Shown here: in pieces, positions 8,392 to 54,852 of the stretch | How the letters are laid out: each line of letters opens with the position of its first letter | Numbering within the stretch: the stretch's first letter is position 1 | Assembly (NCBI GenBank): GCA_019914995.1 | Contig: CM034140.1 | Coordinates: 6,742,026-6,806,025, forward strand | Direction: 5' to 3' | Origin: Acanthochlamys bracteata | Taxonomy: Eukaryota; Streptophyta; Magnoliopsida; Pandanales; Velloziaceae | Length of the DNA stretch: 64,000 nt | The notes under the pieces: generated by a model | The model's database searches: none | What the model was told of the DNA's origin: nothing | Seen by the model: only the letters and a program-made list of their open reading frames with translations | Translations under genes and position numbers: made by a program

Positions 8392-8475
8392 GTCAGGATG
8401 GCCGAGTGGTCTAAGGCGCCAGACTCAAGTTCTGGTCCTCTAACGAGGGCGTGGGTTCAAATCCCACTTCTGACA
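8392..8475 (+). tRNA. tRNA-Leu (CAA)
   Basis: A complete type II tRNA of 84 bases without intron. The acceptor stem GTCAGGA pairs with TTCTGAC (one G-T pair), A is the discriminator base, the D-arm contains the A box GGCCGAGTGGTCTAAGG, the anticodon stem CCAGA/TCTGG encloses loop CTCAAGT with anticodon CAA, a long variable arm follows, and the T-arm holds the B box GGTTCAAATCC. A run of five T at 8482-8486 can end Pol III transcription. It lies directly after the PPR relic. Confidence 0.97.
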
Positions 8476-42692: not shown

Positions 42693-44187
42693 TTATCGAC
42701 GCTTGCACTCCAGCGGCTGCACCGGGAACCGAGCCGAATCCGCACAATAGTCATAAATCAAATGGTTAGCCCGGACCCAGATCAACTGATGACTCTGGTG
42801 CAAGCTCAGCTCCTCCATCCCCGTCACCGAATCACCGCCGTCGATCCTCAACTCCCGGTATGTCGCAAAAAATGGCGCGTGAGTCCAGTCCGTCTTGACC
42901 CGGCCGCCTTGCGTTGCCCAATCATCGGCGTTCCATATGGAGCTATAAACACCCATTGGTTGGTCTTTCGGAAATGGAATGGACTTCTTTTCTTGGTTAG
43001 GGTAAACCCGGACCGGTGTCTCATCTACGGCGAACACAACATGGTTTGGCGTCCATAAAATCGAGTATGCGTGGAAATCGGTCGTCGGATCGAACCAGAG
43101 GTCGAATCTTTGCTCCCGGTTTCCGACACCGTTTATGTACAAGTTGGTCTGCACTAAATATGGCTCGCCGGAAGTGTTGCCGAGGAATTCGAAGTCGAAT
43201 TCATTGTGGCTCGGTCCGTCCGACGACATCTGTCATTGCAACAAAATTTTTTTACCAACGGTGGAGAAGTTCATGATGGTGACAAAAAAAGATGCATACA
43301 TCTTCTAATAAAAAGGACACAAGGTACAGTGGAAGAAAACATTTTACAGCTAAGCAAAAGACATGAAATGAAAGCGAAGCACCAGAAGGTACTACTACTA
43401 CTACTACTAAACTACAAGTCTACAACTACTACCGGCTGGTTTTGCTTTTAACCTTTCAGTGCAATGATGGTAAAATCCAAAACAAAAAAGTATTATTGGG
43501 AATTTAGTAATTTCTAGTTGAAGAAATGCTAGCTTACATAGAAGGCGGTGACGGTACCGGCGGAGTCGCCGGGAACAAGTTTGATCTCGAAGGTTGCACG
43601 GCCGTAAACGTACTTGTTCTTCGAAGCGAAACCAGAACCTGAATGAACGAAAACAGAGGGAAAAATCAGGGAAATTCTCTGATGAAAGTTTTATCATTTA
43701 GAGAATGCAAACTACGCAAGTTGCAGAATGTAAACTTCTTTCAGTGCAACAGCAAAAGCAGAAAAAACTCAAACAGAAGTTTCTAAAAAAAAACAGCCAC
43801 AATTTTCTGAATCGTAAAAACAGATAGGAAAATACAGCAACAACAAAAATGCAGGAAAGAAACATGAAAGTAAATAAATCTACAATGCAAAATTTTTAAT
43901 AGAAAAAATCAGAACCAATAGAAATGTAATACTCATTTCCGTCGCACATAATAAGAGACTAAGAAAATTTGTGAACGCGTTGATTCTTTGATTGATTGAT
44001 TATTACCGGAGAAGTTGTCGAGCTTGAGCTTGAGTAGCTCTCCGTCGAAACTCAAGTGATCCCCTGCCCAGCTCGTCTGGAACAGTTCATCAAACTTCGC
44101 TGCTTCCACCATTACTACCGCTGAGAAGATTGCAGCAGAGATCAATAGACCACCGATGATCAGAACCCGATCAGAAAATCTCTCCAT
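42693..44187 (-). CDS. XTH: Xyloglucan endotransglucosylase/hydrolase (XTH), GH16
   Basis: Secreted wall enzyme that cuts xyloglucan and rejoins or hydrolyses it. Exons: 44187-44007, 43638-43538, 43229-42693; 272 residues, slightly short of the usual 280-295. A signal peptide/hydrophobic segment spans res 8-29. The catalytic motif reads [11 protein letters not shown]: nucleophile Glu104, Asp106 and acid/base Glu108 are present, with Phe where most XTHs have Ile, followed at once by the conserved N-glycosylation site N112-T-S. Other landmarks are [40 protein letters not shown] and the C-terminal [11 protein letters not shown] and PLEC of the XET_C domain. The usual first Cys pair between the catalytic domain and this C-terminal motif is not visible. 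The NEFDFEF form suggests the group I/II XTHs rather than the XEH-type III-A clade. Confidence 0.95.
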
Positions 44188-44370: not shown

Positions 44371-47300
44371 TAATTTTAAATTGATTAAAATGAAAACAAA
44401 AATAAACAAATAAATAGATTGTTCCTTTATCCCTGGCAAGTGGCAACCGAGGCTGCTGTTCTCTAATTAATTAACAGTAATCATTATAATTTGTTTAGAT
44501 ATTATCACTTAATTACTTAGATTATTATTGAAATAATTCATGATAAATTGATAATAATGGTAATTTGGAGTTTATGAATTTGTTTGTATTAATTTATTGA
44601 ATCACTACTTATTTACTGAACGGAGAAAGGACAATTATTATGGTACCTTTATGAGTGTTAGCGTGCTTTCATTTTTTTTTCTTTCTTTCTTCTGGGTCGC
44701 GCAGTTCACGATAACGTCCATTCGGTACAGGATAAGGACTAGCTTCTTGCTTCTTTTAACTGTACCCTTATTCAATTTGTAGAGTATCCGAAATTTGTTT
44801 TGGATATGCTTTATTTTTATGGCAATTTGAAGTGATTTAAAATTAGTTTGGTGAAAACTAGTCCTTTTTTTATCTTCTATAAATGCATATATTTTGCGTT
44901 GAAATATGAAAGAAGTATTTACCATTTAGTAAAGTTATCAAGAAGTTAAAATAAAAAGATACATCTGAATCAAGAATGGATAAGGACTGAATTTAGGAAT
45001 ACTTCTGCAGGTGTCCCTTGTTTGCAAAACAGGAATTTTTCGAAATGAAACGTCCAAGATATGATTGCGTGGATGCTTTACCTTTCGCACGTGGGAATAC
45101 TACGTTGGTTTCTCAAGTAGCCGTTGCACCATTTTGCCTTTTCTTAGCTGGCTATCACAATCGGTCCCGCAGCAAATTTATAAAATCCAATGATAAAATG
45201 ACACGTGTTTGAATCCAGCTGTTGCGATCTCTGCGCAGGAATATCTGGACCATTCAATTAAAAGCTAACAGGTCCCACTACCGCTCCGCTTTTGTATTTC
45301 TCCAGCTGGCTTGTGACCCAATAATGTTCTCTAGCAGATTTTGAAAAAGTCGATGCTGCTACGGTAGGAAGAATTTATAGCCGTCGATTTTTCGTTGTGA
45401 GGTTTTTAATTAGATACAGTAGCGTGCGGGCGTTTGTTTGGAGGACATTGACGGGTGAGATTGCATCCGGAATTGTTCCCGTGATGGTTGGTAAAGTCTC
45501 GGTGTGGGGACCACGTGTTTATTCGGACTTCGTTCTCTTGCTTCTCCCGTGGTCGTGAGATAAAAGAATAGAAACGGGCGAAACATGGAGACGCGTTCCA
45601 ATTCTTTTTTTTTATATATACATTTTTTCTTGCAAAAAACAAATATTTTAAATGAAAACAACGTATAAAAATAGAATAAAAAAATATGCATTAATAAAGT
45701 GTCGTAGAAAATAAATAGAAATAATTATATCAAATGTGATAATTTTTATTCGGCGAGTAAAGAATGAGTGTTTTTCGCACAAATTTCAAAGCAAATTATT
45801 GCTGGTCTTTTCACTTCTGTGGTGTCTAGTCTTCACTCACTCCTTCGCATTTTTATGAATATCACCATCAAAATTCCCAACGTTTATTTTACTTTTTTCT
45901 TAAACCACCCTTGCAGAATACAAATCACAAACAGATCCATCTCTTTTGCTATTTAGGGGAAACGCGAATTATTAGAAAATATAGAAACACGCATCTCTGT
46001 GATTTAATCAATCGTACTGTAGCCGTACGTGAGCAACAGCTGACGTCTCGTGTTTTCTCCTGTCCGCATTTGAATACGGCGTCAGATGACTTCATGATTT
46101 TGTCGTTTTCTTCTGTGAGATAATACAGGTTAGACTGCCGTGGGGTCCATCTAATTCTATTTAAAAAATAATCTATTTAGTTGTTTACCACTAACCAAAT
46201 TTATATTTTACAAAATTTCTTTTTAATGTAAAATAAATGTAAAAAATTATTTTTTACAAATTTTTAAAATTAACATTTATTTTTTTAAATGAATTTATTT
46301 TAAATAAACACATCTTAAGAATACGTTCGATATTACTTTTTAAAAATATTGTTTTAATTCTTTATTTCATATTTTTGATAAATTTTTTATAATATTTTAT
46401 AAAATTATTTAAAATATTTTAATCATAAAATTTTATTATTATTTTTTAATCAAACTAACAAAATTCATTTCTCAAAATTAATAAATTTTTTTTTATTTTA
46501 TAAAAGTATTTTTTATAAGTATTTTTAAAGATCACTATAATTTAATAAATGATTCTCCACACAATAGTATATAATTATTCATTCGAATTTGAATGTGAAT
46601 CACATTTTTTTAGTTAATCACCAGAAAAGAGAGCTAACAACCTGTAAAAACAGTAACAAAGATTGTTAACAAAAAGTTATTTTAAATAAAAGGAAGCCAT
46701 AATGCTTTACAGTTCATGCATAGATGTTTATAAATAATACAACAGTCAGAGATTGGGAGCTTGCCAAAAGCAATGAAGCATCTTTTCCTTGATTCTCTCA
46801 TGCAAAATGACAACAAACCAAAATGAATGCAACAGTTTGCAAAACTATGCAAGAAAAGTTTAGAATGTATTTGTTTGATTTTAAAAATGAGTTCTTAAAA
46901 ATAAATTATTAGAAATAATATTGTTGGAATTGATATGTTCTTTTTATATTAAAAGATAAGTTGAAAGTAAATTTTTATATTTTTTTAGTAAAAAAGTGAC
47001 TTCTTAGTAAATATTGAAGTGATTTTAAAAATAAGTTTATTTTATAACGAATAATATTTTAAAAATTTTATAAAATAAGTTATGTATTTCTAATTTAAAA
47101 TAAAAACTAGAATAAAAAAAAGACACTACTTTAGAGAAAGTTTAGGAGTATTTAGAAAATAGAAATTTTCTAAAATAAAGTTATTTTAAAATATTTTAAA
47201 TATAATTTTTTCTACTCAAAAAATAAAATAATTATTAATATAAAAGTTTTCTGATAAAAAATTTTGTGATTTTAAATTACAAAAATTTCTGTAAAATAAT

Positions 47301-47850
47301 ATAAAATTGAAAAATATGAAATATTTATTTGAATAATAAGTATTAAAGAGCAATGTCAAAACTGTCTTAATCTAAGGTTGTCTATTAAATTTGGGTAAGT
47401 GATTTCCTTACAGAATTAGTAAAAACTAATTTATTAGGAAGCTAATAAAGCTTTCGATTTTTATAATTTAGGATAAAATTTCAGATAATTATGTAATACT
47501 GAGACGAATTTCTAAGCTTATTTCAGAAACCTCTTGAAAGCTCAACAAAACAATTAAAAGAAATACATAATACTCGTTCAATATTGTTAATAACTCAGAA
47601 CAAATTATAGAAGAGTTATTAGTATGCAGAGTTGCTATTGCGACTATTTTATGATGAATAATGTATTTGTATAATTTAAATAAAACATTTTTAATTTCAA
47701 ACTCACAGTTTGTAACAATAAATACTTAGTTCCAAATTTGAACTCACTTTTCAGTGTTATTTTTTAAGTAATTTATTTTGAAAATTCAGCTCTACAATTT
47801 CAATTCTGTACAAAGAAACCCAACATAGAAAAATACCAACTGTTGGGTTC
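44371..47850. other. XTH upstream region and AT-rich spacer
   Basis: Positions 45018-46130 are less AT-rich and contain several ACGTG cores (GCACGTGG near 45088, ACACGTGT near 45201, CCACGTGT near 45513, GTACGTGA near 46025); they could be regulatory. Positions 46310-46560 and 46850-47340 are AT-rich repeat pieces like family C. No gene is supported; short open frames here have no domain. Confidence 0.4.
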
Positions 47851-47855
47851 TTTGT

Positions 47856-47972
47856 GGCCCATAATGGGCCTTAAGTTAGAGCCCAGACGAAATAACCACG
47901 ACCATTTTGCATAGTGTAAAGCTATAAAATCTTAGTACATTCTTCATATTTCCAGGCCGCCACAAACCCTAA
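47856..47972 (+). promoter_or_regulatory. Promoter with site II pair, TATA and telo-box
   Basis: A palindromic pair of site II elements, GGCCCATAATGGGCC (47856-47870), is followed by TATA-like CTATAAAAT (47922-47930) and a telo-box AAACCCTAA (47964-47972). Site II plus telo-box is the known combination in plant promoters of ribosomal-protein and snoRNA genes, which fits the snoRNA copies that follow. Confidence 0.75.
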
Positions 47973-48365
47973 TTAAATTTGTAGAGATTCTACCAAAAAT
48001 TTCAGCGATAAAGTTCATCGATCTCTTGGTTATTTTTTTTCTGTATGTTGTTTTCTTCAGAGTAAGATTGGGTTGAGTGTTGTTGATTGTATGGTTTATT
48101 GGTTGTAATTTTTGTTGAATTTGCGTCGGAGAACTGATTACCGTTGAGTGAAATTCTTTTCATTGGTCTATGTGTATGAATACGGCGCTAGATCAATTAT
48201 CCTCCGCTATCTGCAGAGTTTGAATGGTTTTTGGGGTTTTTCAGAAACCCCAATTGTAGATGTGGAGAAATTTTCAGAAACACCAAATGTTGTGTTTATT
48301 TTTAAAAAACATTTTTGGTGAAATTACGTGCAATGATTGTTTTGTTGAATCTTTGAAAGGAAAAT

Positions 48366-48466
48366 GAATTGATGAGACTTTCCCCACATGATAGACGCTT
48401 GATTATAAAGTGCGTTTGTTAACATTTTCTCCCATGGAGAGATACCAAGCCTGTGGATCTGATCTG
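48366..48466 (+). ncRNA. Box C/D-like snoRNA, copy 1
   Basis: Box C TGATGAG at 48370-48376 and box D CTGA at 48459-48462. Between them lie ACTTTCCCCACATGAT, a D'-like CTTGATTATA, a small stem TCTCC-CAT-GGAGA and ATACCAAGCC, followed by a variable segment directly upstream of box D that would be the guide. The order is shared with copies 2 and 3. I do not recognise a named plant snoRNA. The target cannot be given without an rRNA/snRNA comparison. Confidence 0.7.
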
Positions 48467-49110
48467 TTCTTCTCGAAAAAAGAATGTTCAAAATTTTCGG
48501 CGATGGGTAATGTGCTTTGCAACTCTGACTAAGATTTAGTTGTTTTATAATTCATTAAGTCGTGGTTATTCAGGTGGATAATATTTCTTTAGTAGTGAAG
48601 CAATAAGTTTGTTGCACTAGGTTGGTGTTAATTATATATTAGTTCCGAGAGCAAGTTTTCTTTTGGGAATTTGATTGATACTTGGAATTTTAACATAGTT
48701 ATTATGCTATTAATTTTGATATTTTCTTTGGAGTTTTGATGCCATGCTCTTACAGTGAAAGTATTACTAACACCTATATTTGTTGAATTTGAATTAGAGA
48801 TACCAAGTCAGAGTTTGTTCCTTTCTTAGGGTAAGATGTTCATTCCTGACAATGTTATCTATTTTAGCATTTTGTTTTCGAATAAAATACCTCAATCTTC
48901 ATGTTCAAATATGATAGTTAGTGAAGTTGCTAATTCTTTTGCAACCGAGTAATAAATGATTCATCTGCTTACAGTGAGGTTATATTATTGTTTAGCAAGA
49001 TATCTTGTTGGAGTTTAGGGTAATGATATATATCAATACTGGTTTCGTGTTGATGTATGATAAACAATGGTTTTTCTTTGATTTTGAAACAAGTGGGCTT
49101 TTATGAGATG

Positions 49111-49208
49111 GAGTTGATGAGCCTTTCCCCAAATGATCGACGCTGATTATAATGCGCGCTAATTTACATCTCTCTTCGGGAGATATACCAAGCCATATCT
49201 CTGATCCT
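49111..49208 (+). ncRNA. Box C/D-like snoRNA, copy 2
   Basis: Box C TGATGAG at 49115-49121, box D CTGA at 49201-49204, internal CTGA (D') at 49143-49146 after CCTTTCCCCAAATGATCG. The internal stem is ATCTC/GAGAT around a TTCG-containing loop, at the same place as TCTCC/GGAGA in copy 1. ATACCAAGCC follows. GGAG/TCC flanking bases could form a short terminal stem. Confidence 0.75.
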
Positions 49209-49916
49209 TTCTCATAGAAAATGCCCATTTTTGCCATTATTATTTGTTTGGTTTACATAAATTCGCAATAAGTCGTAGGTCGAGTCCTTACTTATTCTTA
49301 CAAACAAGATGCTGAAAGCTGTTTTTTTCATGGCCTTTTTTGTTATTAATTGTATCTGGATGGATGCCCCAAATCAAGGTCGATTTCTATAAATCTACAA
49401 TGATATCATTCAGGGTCAGAGCGATAATGAAGAATAACGATACTGTTACATATTTGGCTGGATATCTAGGTTGATTTTTGTGCATTTAAGCACTTGTTTG
49501 TTACCAATTGATTTCCCTCAGTTGTATGCTTCAGTGATTTACTATTAACAAGTTACTTGGTATATATAGGCAATAGTACAGTGTCAACTTGCTTAGTTCT
49601 ACCTCTTAAACTTGTAGGTTTTAAAGATTTTCCGCTATAGATAACTCTTAGACTTGGAGCACAGCAGCATTACAAACTCCTAATTTGAAGCTTGCTCGTA
49701 TGGTTTAAATTGTTGTGTCTTCCTCGAAAGTGATTTAAACATCCTATTCCAAATGGTAAGCATGATCAGGTGCAACTAAAAGAATGCTGTGCTGTATATG
49801 TGGTTATGGTTCATGGTTTGTGTTTCTAATTGTTTGTCAATGAATATGATTCTTGATCCATTAAGTTGTAAACACACAATTTTTTCTTGTCATGTTCTTG
49901 TAGCTATTCTATAGTG

Positions 49917-50015
49917 AAGTTGGCTATGAGCCTTTATCCGCATGATTTACCTTGATTATAGAGTGCAGTTGAAGTGTAATTCTTTTAAGAATTATAGCCA
50001 GTGAACTCTGATCTA
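49917..50015 (+). ncRNA. Box C/D-like snoRNA, copy 3 (diverged)
   Basis: Box C is CTATGAG (49924-49930), one base away from the consensus UGAUGA, and box D is CTGA at 50008-50011. CCTTTATCCGCATGAT and CTTGATTATAGAGTGC align with copies 1 and 2. The internal stem is TAATTC/GAATTA, fully different in sequence but again paired, and is followed by ATAGCC. The weaker C box suggests it may be decaying or have a different guide. Confidence 0.6.
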
Positions 50016-50060
50016 TTTCATTTGAAATTCTCTCTGGGTTAATGATTCTATCATATTCTT

Positions 50061-50112
50061 GTACAGTATGATTAGATCTCTACTTTGCGGTCCGGACCAT
50101 GGTATACTGTAC
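50061..50112 (+). other. Inverted repeat (hairpin) downstream of the snoRNAs
   Basis: GTACAGTAT (50061-50069) pairs perfectly with ATACTGTAC (50104-50112); the loop contains the palindrome GGTCCGGACC. Just after it TGGAT...ATCCA (50117-50137) can form a second small hairpin. Function unknown. Confidence 0.45.
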
Positions 50113-52074
50113 TAGATGGATTATACTGTAGATCCATGCGATTATTTTTTTTGTTCATCCAATTTGTTTCTTTATTGTTGTTAATAGTGTTCTTTTTGTT
50201 TTTTCCGAAGAGGATTCTTTTATGATCGCTACTAATTTTTACGTGATATTTATGTTGGCCACTGCTGATCCTGTTTTTGCTGATGCTTCTTACTGAAATT
50301 CTGGTTTTTACATGAACGTCATAATGTTGTCTTCCATTTATCTTTATTCTTGATTAAGTGCTTGTACTTCCAGCATGTTATATGTGTTATATGTCAGATT
50401 AAAACAATATGGAACTTATTTTTTATGTCAGATTTTGAATTCCAACTTATTTCAGTACTTATAAGATTTATTTTAAATTATTTTTGCTGAGCCTAGTTAC
50501 TCAATTTACACTATGAGTATATATTAATTGCAAAAATTCTACTTATTCTTTCAAATTTTAAATTTTTTCATGTTTCAATTATTATTTTAAACTTTTTTTA
50601 TATTAAAATTTACTTCCGTTAAATTAAAGTTTAGTTTCATATTTTATTTTACTTCCATCAAGCTTTACTTTTTATTAAGATTTATTTTCACGAAATTTAG
50701 AAAATGTTTTTGAATACTTATAAAAAACAGTTTTTCTTGATAAAAAAATATTTTGAAAAATTTTTAAATAATTTTTTATTTTAAAAGAATATATAATAAT
50801 ATAGTATGATATAAAATTTTTATATTTTCTAATTTTAAAAAATATTTAATTATATAAAATTAATTTTGAGAAAAATAAAATAAAATCTTGAAATATTTAA
50901 AAGCACTCTCCAACGTTATCTTATTTTTGAAAAATTAATTTCATACAATTTAAAAGTTGCCCTAATTAATACAGTCTAATCTGTTATGTATATCTGCAAT
51001 TGTAGGATAAAAAATTGTGCGACATTTTATGAGGATGTTTAAATGCTTCCTGCAAAAAGCTGAAACTTTGTAGCATTTCGAAAGTAAGCAGCCTTTTCGG
51101 AAAAGTTAAATAGATTCCCTGAGGAGGCCCGGAAGAGGGAATCTTTTTGCCTCATGTATCATGATCTTTGACCCATTCTTATGAAAATATCTATTAACTT
51201 TAATGGACGTTATCTTCAAATAGTGACACCATTGAATAAATAAACGGTCTATGTTCTGGGAAATAACACTTTTTCTTATTGGTGAAGATTCCTGTTTTCG
51301 AGTGAGAAATCTCTTGTGCGTTTGCTGGCTGATGATGCCTGCTGTATCTAGAAGATATATGGAAGTAACATTGGATCTACTATAAGCTTAACAAAATCTA
51401 ATTTCATATTTTTACTTCCCATTTTTAGATTAATATTTTAATTTTATTTTTCGAATTTTATTTTTCATTAAATTTTATTTTATACAATTTTATCAAATGT
51501 TTACTTCACATGTTTAGAAAATGCAAAATGAATCCCAAACGCTCATGAGTTTGGACCATGTTTAAAATATTTTAGAGATAAAATGATAAAATGAATCCCA
51601 TCTTGTAGATAATATTTTAGACCATGTTTCAATTTTAATGAACTTCACTCTCTATCCAGATCTTTAAATTCATCTTTTTTAAATATTTTAGTTATCATTT
51701 CGGACTTTATTTTCGCATTCATATCAATTTCTTTTTTTATCAAAACCTAATTTCAAATTTTTACTTCACATGTTTAGATAATATTTTAATTTTATTTTTT
51801 CAAAATGTTTAAATTTCACTTTCACATTTCACAAAATACATTTTTGTGAAACTCATTTTTATGTAATTGAAATGTTTTTAGAAACTAAAAGAGGCTCTAT
51901 TTATCATTGCCGCTTTTTAAATAGGATGTCACAGGTTATGGACGGCATCAGGGTTACTGTTGGTACTGAGCATTCTCCATCTTTGATTCACTATACAAAT
52001 GGAATACTATCGCAAGAAGTAAATTGTTTCACACAGGTCACTATAAGTCTATAAATATTTGATATTTTCACTAA

Positions 52075-53712: not shown

Positions 53713-54825
53713 TTACTCCAATTCCTCGAGTATCTTCACCAACTCGAATGCATACTTTCCGATCTTACTACCTTCTTCTTCTTCAATCAATTGATAACAA
53801 ATTTCAAGCAGACCTTCTTCCTTGGCAATTAAACACATTTTCGAGTTATTCCCACATATCATTTTAAGTACGAAAAGCGCTTGTTCAGTGCTTCTCGAGC
53901 TCCCCTTCCTAATAACATCAGCCAATGTTCCAACAAACTCAACCACTTTGTCCATTGCTCTTCTTCCCTCATCACACTTGGCAAGCAATCCAAGCACTTC
54001 AACTGCCCTCTCCGATCCCTCAGAAGCAAACTGTGTCAGTATAGGCACTGCACCAGCCCGCACTGTCCGCTTTCTATTCTCAGGGAAAGCGGCAAGTGCA
54101 TACAGCGCAGTAGCAGCTTCCTTCCTCTCCCTCTCCTTGCCGTGGTCCGTCAACCGGACGAGTACGTTGATTGCACGAGGGTGCGCCCCAATTGTAGCCT
54201 TATTGACTTCTACCACAGCTAAACTAGTAATTAATGTAGCAGCTAAAGCCGCAGCCGGCCCTCGATCGCTGAGGGCCGCAACAAGAGGCTCAACAGCACC
54301 TTCGGCGACTAATCCAACTCTAGCATCATCACCATCAAGACTTAACTTAAGCAACAACCTCAAAGCAAGTTCTCGACATGAACCCCCATCCGCCACATGG
54401 CGCAACAGAATAGAAGATACCCCAGAATCAAGCAATCTCCGGCGAGCACCGGCTCCGCCGCTCTTCGCCAAATTATAAGCAGATAACAAAAATTCTTCGG
54501 AAACCGGGTACGATAACTGCGTAATCAATTCATTCAAACTCGAACCAGAAGTTGAAGAAGAATCGTTGTAGAGCTGCGAAGAAACAGGCGAATTTGAAGG
54601 AGTACTAGAAAAGGCAGAAATCAGAGACCGAAGCGCGTGATTAGGAATCAAGGAAGGAGAAGGTGGTAATGGCAGATTTGTAACAGGACAAGTTCTGTTG
54701 CCGGAATCTAACCAACGTTGAATGGAAGAACGATCGAATGTGTGGCCGGATGAAAGGATGACAGGATCAGTCATCACTTCTAATGAGATCGGGCACCGGA
54801 AATCGTCCGGGTACCCAATCTCCAT
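53713..54825 (-). CDS. PUB8: U-box E3 ubiquitin ligase with ARM repeats, PUB8 type
   Basis: Single-exon gene, 370 residues from the ATG at 54825, which I prefer over the upstream in-frame ATG at 54852 because the family starts a few residues before the U-box. The U-box (about res 7-75) has the hallmark DDFRCPISLEVMTDPVIL, SGHTFDR, IQRWL and CP-TNLPLP...LIPNHALRSLI, and binds E2 enzymes. Armadillo-type repeats follow (about res 120-365), with LAVVEVNKATIG and RERKEAATALYALAAFPENRKR closely matching recalled Arabidopsis PUB8 (At4g21350). It likely ubiquitinates a protein bound by the ARM region; the substrate is unknown. The leader region 54826-55060 is GA-rich. The gene is more GC-rich than its surroundings, as is usual for intronless PUB genes. 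Confidence 0.95.
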   Translation of the reverse strand: MEIGYPDDFRCPISLEVMTDPVILSSGHTFDRSSIQRWLDSGNRTCPVTNLPLPPSPSLIPNHALRSLISAFSSTPSNSPVSSQLYNDSSSTSGSSLNELITQLSYPVSEEFLLSAYNLAKSGGAGARRRLLDSGVSSILLRHVADGGSCRELALRLLLKLSLDGDDARVGLVAEGAVEPLVAALSDRGPAAALAATLITSLAVVEVNKATIGAHPRAINVLVRLTDHGKERERKEAATALYALAAFPENRKRTVRAGAVPILTQFASEGSERAVEVLGLLAKCDEGRRAMDKVVEFVGTLADVIRKGSSRSTEQALFVLKMICGNNSKMCLIAKEEGLLEICYQLIEEEEGSKIGKYAFELVKILEELE

Positions 54826-54852
54826 TAAAATTAATCTTCTAAGCTCCTGCAA

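Follow-up and report, generated by a model that had tools for sequence, protein, structure and literature searches.

A tandem snoZ103 box C/D snoRNA cluster in Acanthochlamys bracteata and its putative target in 25S rRNA

The question raised by this locus is what kind of RNA is encoded by three related copies standing in tandem in Acanthochlamys bracteata, which nucleotide they may guide, and whether the short stem drawn in each of them has been shaped by selection. The window, that is the whole stretch of DNA that was analysed, comprises 64,000 nucleotides. Scanning it with cmscan at curated cut-offs returned three matches, two to snoZ103 (RF00149, gathering cut-off 44 bits) and one to a tRNA. 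Weak matches were additionally shown for 4.5 kb (47000-51500) against 4227 Rfam families. The three copies score as follows:

48363-48467, + strand: snoZ103 copy 1 (RF00149, 54.1 bits, above the cut-off of 44; E 3.7e-9)
49108-49209, + strand: snoZ103 copy 2, the most complete in the window (RF00149, 81.1 bits; E 3.6e-16)
49919-50016, + strand: snoZ103 copy 3, diverged and probably decaying (RF00149, 32.7 bits, below the cut-off; E 0.0014)

According to the cmscan E values of all three, the likeness of the copies exceeds chance. Copies 1 and 2 agree with RF00149 over the full length, in all boxes, the guide block, the linker and the ASE2 core, while copy 3 stays under the cut-off and is a distant member of snoZ103. 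A preliminary description of this DNA had proposed box C/D RNAs born of duplication, and this has been borne out. Its further suggestion that the family may be unlisted was overturned by the Rfam search: RF00149 is an already listed plant family and the cluster is ordinary in kind. Judging from their sequence, copies 1 and 2 are probably functional.

In copies 1 and 2 the elements follow one another in the order box C UGAUGA, guide core CUUUCCCC, two bases, box D' AUGA, linker, box C' UGAUUA, stem-loop, second element CCAAGCC (the ASE2 core) and box D CUGA. Box C, box D', box C' and box D of these two copies were read from the sequence:

48370-48375, + strand: copy 1 box C TGATGA
48378-48385, + strand: copy 1 D' guide core CTTTCCCC (8 contiguous Watson-Crick pairs, D'+3 to D'+10, with GGGGAAAG of 25S, plus D'+1)
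48388-48391, + strand: copy 1 box D' ATGA
48400-48405, + strand: copy 1 box C' TGATTA
48426-48442, + strand: copy 1 stem-loop TTTCTCC-CAT-GGAGAGA (shuffle p 0.34; in the minimum-energy fold)
48445-48451, + strand: copy 1 ASE2 core CCAAGCC (GGCTTGG upstream of the target gives 7 pairs; shuffle p 0.0075)
48459-48462, + strand: copy 1 box D CTGA
49115-49120, + strand: copy 2 box C TGATGA
49123-49130, + strand: copy 2 D' guide core CTTTCCCC (8 contiguous pairs, D'+3 to D'+10)
49133-49136, + strand: copy 2 box D' ATGA (faces CAGA of the SNORD12 consensus in our reading of the alignment)
49137-49142, + strand: copy 2 linker TCGACG from D' to C', the k-loop (GAUCGAC common with the SNORD12 model)
49144-49149, + strand: copy 2 box C' TGATTA
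49168-49184, + strand: copy 2 stem-loop ATCTCTC-TTC-GGGAGAT (shuffle p 0.15; in the minimum-energy fold)
49188-49194, + strand: copy 2 ASE2 core CCAAGCC (shuffle p 0.0075)
49201-49204, + strand: copy 2 box D CTGA

Both copies thus have UGAUGA and CUGA near their ends, as is characteristic of box C/D RNAs, while copy 3 has box D but CUAUGA in place of box C. It had been stated that all three copies share box C, a conserved block, a D'-like element and box D; D' (AUGA) and box D are indeed present in all three, together with C' (UGAUUA), but box C and the block CUUUCCCC are common to copies 1 and 2 only. If the D'-like element of that statement was the shared CTGATTATA/TTGATTATA, it has to be re-read as C', and D' is the AUGA lying 11-12 bases earlier. 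The linker reads UCGACG in copy 2 and UAGACG in copy 1, whose k-loop is changed. In our reading of the folds, a closing stem outside C/D (ATGAGA..TCTCAT) is seen in copy 2, is less clear in copy 1 and is not visible in copy 3.

Relatives of the cluster were searched for in the genome (195.5 Mb, 557 contigs), where 52 of 15,643 candidates were scored, so that the counts are lower bounds. At least eight snoZ103 matches were found, all above the cut-off, and closer scans added a third copy at the window locus (C15) and a third copy at C10. This brings the family to at least ten copies at four places, namely three at C15, three at C10, two at C2 and two at C1. Across these ten, UGAUGA and CUGA are each present in eight, D' AUGA in nine and UUUCCCC in six; by our count all four elements occur together in six copies (C15_1, C15_2, C10_1, C10_2, C2_a and C2_b). 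No C1 copy has all four intact, and in C10_3 (L010:5364-5464) boxes C, D' and D are broken. An alignment of the C15 and C10 surroundings takes in the promoter, the leader and the copies (70% over 812 columns, E 5.6e-93). C1 and C2 likewise stand in homologous surroundings, with the longer common stretch, among the matches listed, lying downstream (71% over 1151 columns); both alignments are as expected if larger segments had been duplicated. In the alignment of C15 with C10, the intact copy 2 faces the third C10 copy, which is broken, and a remnant at about 48794-48821 faces the second C10 copy, which is intact; a local match over 48796-49247 agrees with this. By sequence, it is this intact C10 copy that comes nearest to copy 2 (84.6% over 123), and the pairing of copies between the two places therefore rests on position. 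Copies have presumably been lost on different sides.

The elements of copy 3 and the remnant are located as follows:

49924-49929, + strand: copy 3, CTATGA for box C
49932-49939, + strand: copy 3, CTTTATCC
49942-49945, + strand: copy 3 box D'
49953-49958, + strand: copy 3 box C'
49975-49996, + strand: copy 3 stem-loop TGTAATTCT-TTTA-AGAATTATA (shuffle p 0.08 with GU, 0.03 with Watson-Crick pairs only; in the minimum-energy fold)
50008-50011, + strand: copy 3 box D
about 48794-48821, + strand: remnant of a further snoZ103 copy, truncated to its 3' end (opposite the 3' end of the second C10 copy in the C15-C10 alignment)

Part of the remnant was also recovered as one of the repeats. Copy 3 retains D', C' and D, while UGAUGA is replaced by CUAUGA and CTTTCCCC by CTTTATCC, its guide reading CUUUAUCC, and it differs from copies 1 and 2 in both guides. 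By the change to CUAUGA the C/D kink-turn loses a base of its paired G-A core. Because of this box C, decay is likelier than the acquisition of a new target despite the difference in both guides, and copy 3 is most likely decaying.

Upstream of copy 1 two further features are placed:

47856-47971, + strand: putative promoter (Site II at 47856, 47865 and 47880; TATA-like CTATAAAAT at 47922; telo-box AAACCCTA at 47964)
48110-48215, + strand: conserved block in the presumed precursor, before copy 1 (86% identical to C10:7541742-7541847)

The combination of Site II and telo-box has been described for promoters of plant snoRNA clusters, according to PMC4660826. Seven telo-boxes occur in the window, and the one at 47964 is the only one with three Site II elements within 300 bases, another having one and the remaining five none. 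Site II, telo-box and a TATA-like match are likewise present at the C10 cluster; at C2 and C1 no Site II was found in the 700 bases before the first copy, and an inverted telo-box is present. The C10 match of the conserved block is its only other match in the genome, and in the C15-C10 alignment the block reaches 81% against 57-64% with gaps counted (67-73% without) for promoter, leader and block surroundings. No Rfam match to the block was found at E up to 5. Between 43229 and 53713 no open reading frame of at least 100 amino acids was found; in 47500-50800 there are six of at least 45 amino acids, the longest (81 amino acids) being antisense. The region is adjoined by coding stretches on the - strand for a U-box/ARM protein (53713-54852) and for a GH16 xyloglucan endotransglycosylase-type protein (42693-43229). 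A tRNA-Leu (anticodon CAA) of 84 bases lies at 8392-8475.

As the preliminary description had noticed, each of the three window copies allows a short internal stem; it lies after C' and before the second element, and a helix at this place is possible in all ten copies. When the six copies of C15 and C10 were folded with flanks and without constraints, every minimum-energy fold contained it. The Rfam structure line of RF00149 holds a closing stem only, without a stem after C'. Taken singly, the stems of the window copies are not unusual. Their arms are TTTCTCC/GGAGAGA in copy 1, ATCTCTC/GGGAGAT in copy 2 and TGTAATTCT/AGAATTATA in copy 3, and shuffling each interval yields an equally long stem at rates of 34%, 15% and 8%, respectively, when GU is allowed, and of 35%, 8% and 3% when pairs are restricted to Watson-Crick. 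With GU allowed, the shuffle p of the ten copies lies between 0.0000 and 0.43. Under the Watson-Crick restriction copy 2 forms a different best stem, AGATAT/ATATCT around ACCAAGCC, and no stem of C1_a exceeds 3. The longest stem, a perfect one of 12 bp, sits in C10_3 with its broken boxes C, D' and D and therefore gives no argument for selection through snoRNA function. When the ten copies were pooled, the position-constrained score was 177.6 against 84.6 +- 8.3 for shuffled sequences (largest of 2000 shuffles 117.2), and native arms scored 177.6 against 129.9 +- 11.1 for arms swapped among copies (p 5e-5, 20,000 permutations); both comparisons are too favourable, given the kinship of the copies and a choice of arms that was based on the native stem.

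Within the window the preliminary description had seen compensating changes in all three copies, which would argue for selection on RNA structure. The shuffles, the arm swaps and RNAalifold do not bear this out for all three. An exchange of arms between copies 1 and 2 leaves the score nearly unchanged (47.8 vs 49.4): their stems are shifted versions of one CT-rich/GA-rich helix, and clearly replaced pairs occur only in copy 3. RNAalifold on a plain MAFFT alignment predicted no base pair, which we ascribe in part to the register shifts. The stem is probably real and loosely constrained. A stem-loop is predicted at the corresponding place of Schizosaccharomyces pombe snR107, and its deletion is described as affecting methylation only marginally, with polysome profiles like those of the wild type (PMC11971394).

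The 3' half of the plant's own 25S rRNA was looked for in the genome and not found. Contig C457 (58500-66500) carries 5.8S and rRNA pieces which seem to be of fungal and not of plant type, and the contig may therefore be assembly contamination. Five records with bacterial-genome titles (L031-L035) hold a eukaryotic-type 25S stretch. Pairing was run on these five as surrogates, picked by a pattern containing GGGGAAAGAAGACCC; this pattern contains the presumed target, and the D' target is therefore present in the surrogates by construction. Eukaryotic LSU rRNA was confirmed by Rfam in the three of the five that were scanned (L031, L033 and L035). The register test was run on L034, one of the two outside that scan, with AUGA taken as D'.

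On this target-selected surrogate the third G of the GGGG in GGGGAAAG stands at D'+5. Copies 1 and 2 and four others, six of the ten, form an uninterrupted duplex through it, from D'+3 up to D'+9 or beyond. Eight Watson-Crick pairs from D'+3 to D'+10 are formed by CUUUCCCC in C15_1, C15_2, C10_1, C10_2 and C2_b; C2_a forms seven, then GU at D'+10 and then one more, and the pairing is interrupted in C15_3, C10_3, C1_a and C1_b. The second element, CCAAGCC, lies outside the surrogate search pattern. With GGCUUGG directly upstream it forms seven pairs in C15_1, C15_2 and C10_2 (shuffle p 0.0075-0.0085), six in C2_a, C2_b and C1_b (0.04-0.052) and four to five in C10_1, C1_a, C15_3 and C10_3 (0.12-0.62). 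The main duplex is short, 8 bp, and in an open scan of rRNA in the same register other places pair equally long or longer in several copies (among the best eight places per copy), as in copy 2 with 12 Watson-Crick pairs in L033 at -910. With such rivals, complementarity alone would not choose the target.

The site itself is known from other organisms. G2396 of Arabidopsis 25S is methylated, and PMC8053127 gives the guide assigned to it, SnoR28, a main pairing of 7 bp and an extra one of 8 bp. Table 2 of that paper numbers Arabidopsis positions one above those of yeast (2620/2619, 2922/2921, 2923/2922), and Arabidopsis G2396 is therefore taken as yeast G2395. For S. pombe, PMC11971394 describes ASE1 as complementary to 25S 2480-2493, with the methyl group set at G2483; if this is placed on C-GGGG-AAAG-AAGAC, the third G would be the methylated one. 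By published equivalence the human counterpart is 28S G3878, methylated with SNORD12.

Family membership, box anatomy, pairing and register on the surrogate 25S sequences and the relatives in the genome were observed, while expression, methylation, the precursor and the use of the second element are inferred. Taken together, we consider it likely that the snoZ103 cluster of the window arose by tandem duplication and that in it a precursor under Site II/telo-box control carries copies 1 and 2 as guides of G2396 methylation, with CCAAGCC pairing upstream and copy 3 in decay. One precursor would be expressed from the promoter and cut into separate snoRNAs, each of which would associate with the core C/D proteins. 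Through CUUUCCCC, which stands two bases before the AUGA, the D' guide would then pair with GGGGAAAG in domain V of 25S, near the catalytic centre of the ribosome. Under the D'+5 rule the nucleotide that fibrillarin would methylate is the third G, G2396 in Arabidopsis and G2395 in yeast. CCAAGCC before box D may pair with GGCUUGG 11-17 bases upstream and steady the complex, while the short stem would close the part of the RNA from C' to the second element.

It is also possible, if rather doubtful, that snoZ103 acts mainly as a pre-60S folding chaperone, as snR190 does, keeping the domain V root open but not methylating it. PMC8536666 describes yeast snR190, whose predicted target is this nucleotide too, as giving no methylation and as a placeholder that needs Dbp7 for its release, and S. 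pombe ASE2 is, according to PMC11971394, needed in pre-rRNA processing independently of methylation. The plant D' AUGA, which departs from CUGA, and a main duplex of only 8 bp would suit such a role. The Arabidopsis site is methylated, however, so that some plant guide works there (PMC8053127), and the plant ASE2 core is short, with 6-7 pairs in six of the ten copies.

That all three window copies are non-functional leftovers and the copies at C10 and C2 do the work is unlikely. Damage is certainly seen around them, in the boxes of copy 3 and C10_3, in the want of a fully intact copy at C1, in the remnant and in the changed k-loop (UAGACG) and less clear closing stem of copy 1; but copy 2, at 81.1 bits, has every box intact while the C10 copy facing it is broken, and copy 1 has kept its boxes and promoter motifs. 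The view first put forward, an unlisted family whose copies took different targets, is very improbable: the sequence between CCAAGCC and box D does vary between copies outside that common core, as had been pointed out, and copy 3 departs from the others in both guides and retains a hairpin with replaced pairs, but the family is listed, copy 3 carries CUAUGA, and the CTTTCCCC guides of copies 1 and 2 are identical and share one register, so that the same main target is to be expected.

The likely guides of G2396 in the window invite comparison with several known RNAs. One is the Arabidopsis SnoR28 of Wu et al. (2021): it is like the window copies in G2396 and in its 7-bp main and 8-bp extra pair, the comparison being one of descriptions only (PMC8053127). 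The name is ambiguous, for the Arabidopsis G2396 guide is called SnoR28 and Rfam snoR28 (RF00355) is a different RNA, whose sole genomic match above 45 bits lies on C5 and lacks CUUUCCCC. RF00355 was rejected for the window copies, not being listed in 47000-51500 at E up to 5 nor in the window at curated cut-offs. A plant survey assigns its snoR28 an 18S cytosine target (PMC5122169). Loss of Arabidopsis SnoR28.1 affects methylation at the predicted site, and pre-rRNA processing less so, as summarised in a review (PMC11542601).

Three of the ten copies (C15_2, C2_a and C2_b) were scanned in short stretches against Rfam. Beside the family's own model, C15_2 matched SNORD12 best (E 0.024), C2_a gave DdR2 at E 0.058 and SNORD12 at E 0.081, and C2_b gave neither of the two at E up to 2 and the archaeal sRNA sR35 at 0.11. 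In the 4.5-kb scan SNORD12 was listed for copy 2 alone (E 0.75) and not for copies 1 and 3. With 21.5 and 21.0 bits the matches to SNORD12 are weak and lie far under its cut-off of 43, and the snoZ103 copies are therefore not filed as its members; over the genome the SNORD12 model gave no match at E 0.001. The two non-archaeal models, SNORD12 and DdR2, nevertheless fall on one functional layout. SNORD12/SNORD106 (RF00581), the human guide of 28S G3878, has UGAUGA and UG.U.AU at C' like copy 2, can be aligned with it without gaps from UUUCCCC through GAUCGAC, and has the same target nucleotide by published equivalence; it differs in a 6-base gap before the guide and in belonging to clan CL00044, while none is given for snoZ103. 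Dictyostelium DdR2 (RF01569) shares with C2_a UGAUGA, UCCCC of the guide block, the CGAC linker and the AAGCCA.AAACUCUGAU end, but at 27.1 bits against a cut-off of 80 (E 0.058) it is listed for one of the three copies scanned, and no text on its target was found in the literature searched.

The fungal RNAs are compared by their described layout, not by sequence. S. pombe snR107 and Saccharomyces cerevisiae snR190 are reported to carry, as snoZ103 does, a D' guide to the same 25S element and a conserved 6-nt D'-C' motif, and further a second antisense element before D, to which CCAAGCC may correspond (PMC11971394, PMC8536666), and snR107 also has the stem-loop predicted after C' (PMC11971394). 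They differ in that ASE1 of snR107 spans 14 bases in S. pombe (PMC11971394), and in that snR190 does not methylate, according to PMC8536666. A Neurospora survey names yeast snR190 and human HBII-99 as homologues at a 26S Gm site, and what appears to be its plant column shows a dash (PMC2780460). No text linking snoZ103 to SNORD12, snR190 or snR107 was found in the literature searched. Site, layout and the weak matches to SNORD12 and DdR2, which are not obtained for every copy, suggest that snoZ103 is the plant counterpart of these RNAs, some of which also help to fold pre-60S particles (PMC8536666, PMC11971394). We hold the chances about even that it is their orthologue, so that one RNA for methylation guiding and for the earliest pre-60S folding would predate the split of plants, amoebae, fungi and animals, and its clustered copies here would be losing either function, some tandem copies keeping the methylation guide and others the second element. 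The useful part of this work is the proposed, not proven, link of snoZ103 to the guide and chaperone RNAs SNORD12, snR190 and snR107; if it is true, plant clusters would offer natural variants in which one or the other element is damaged.
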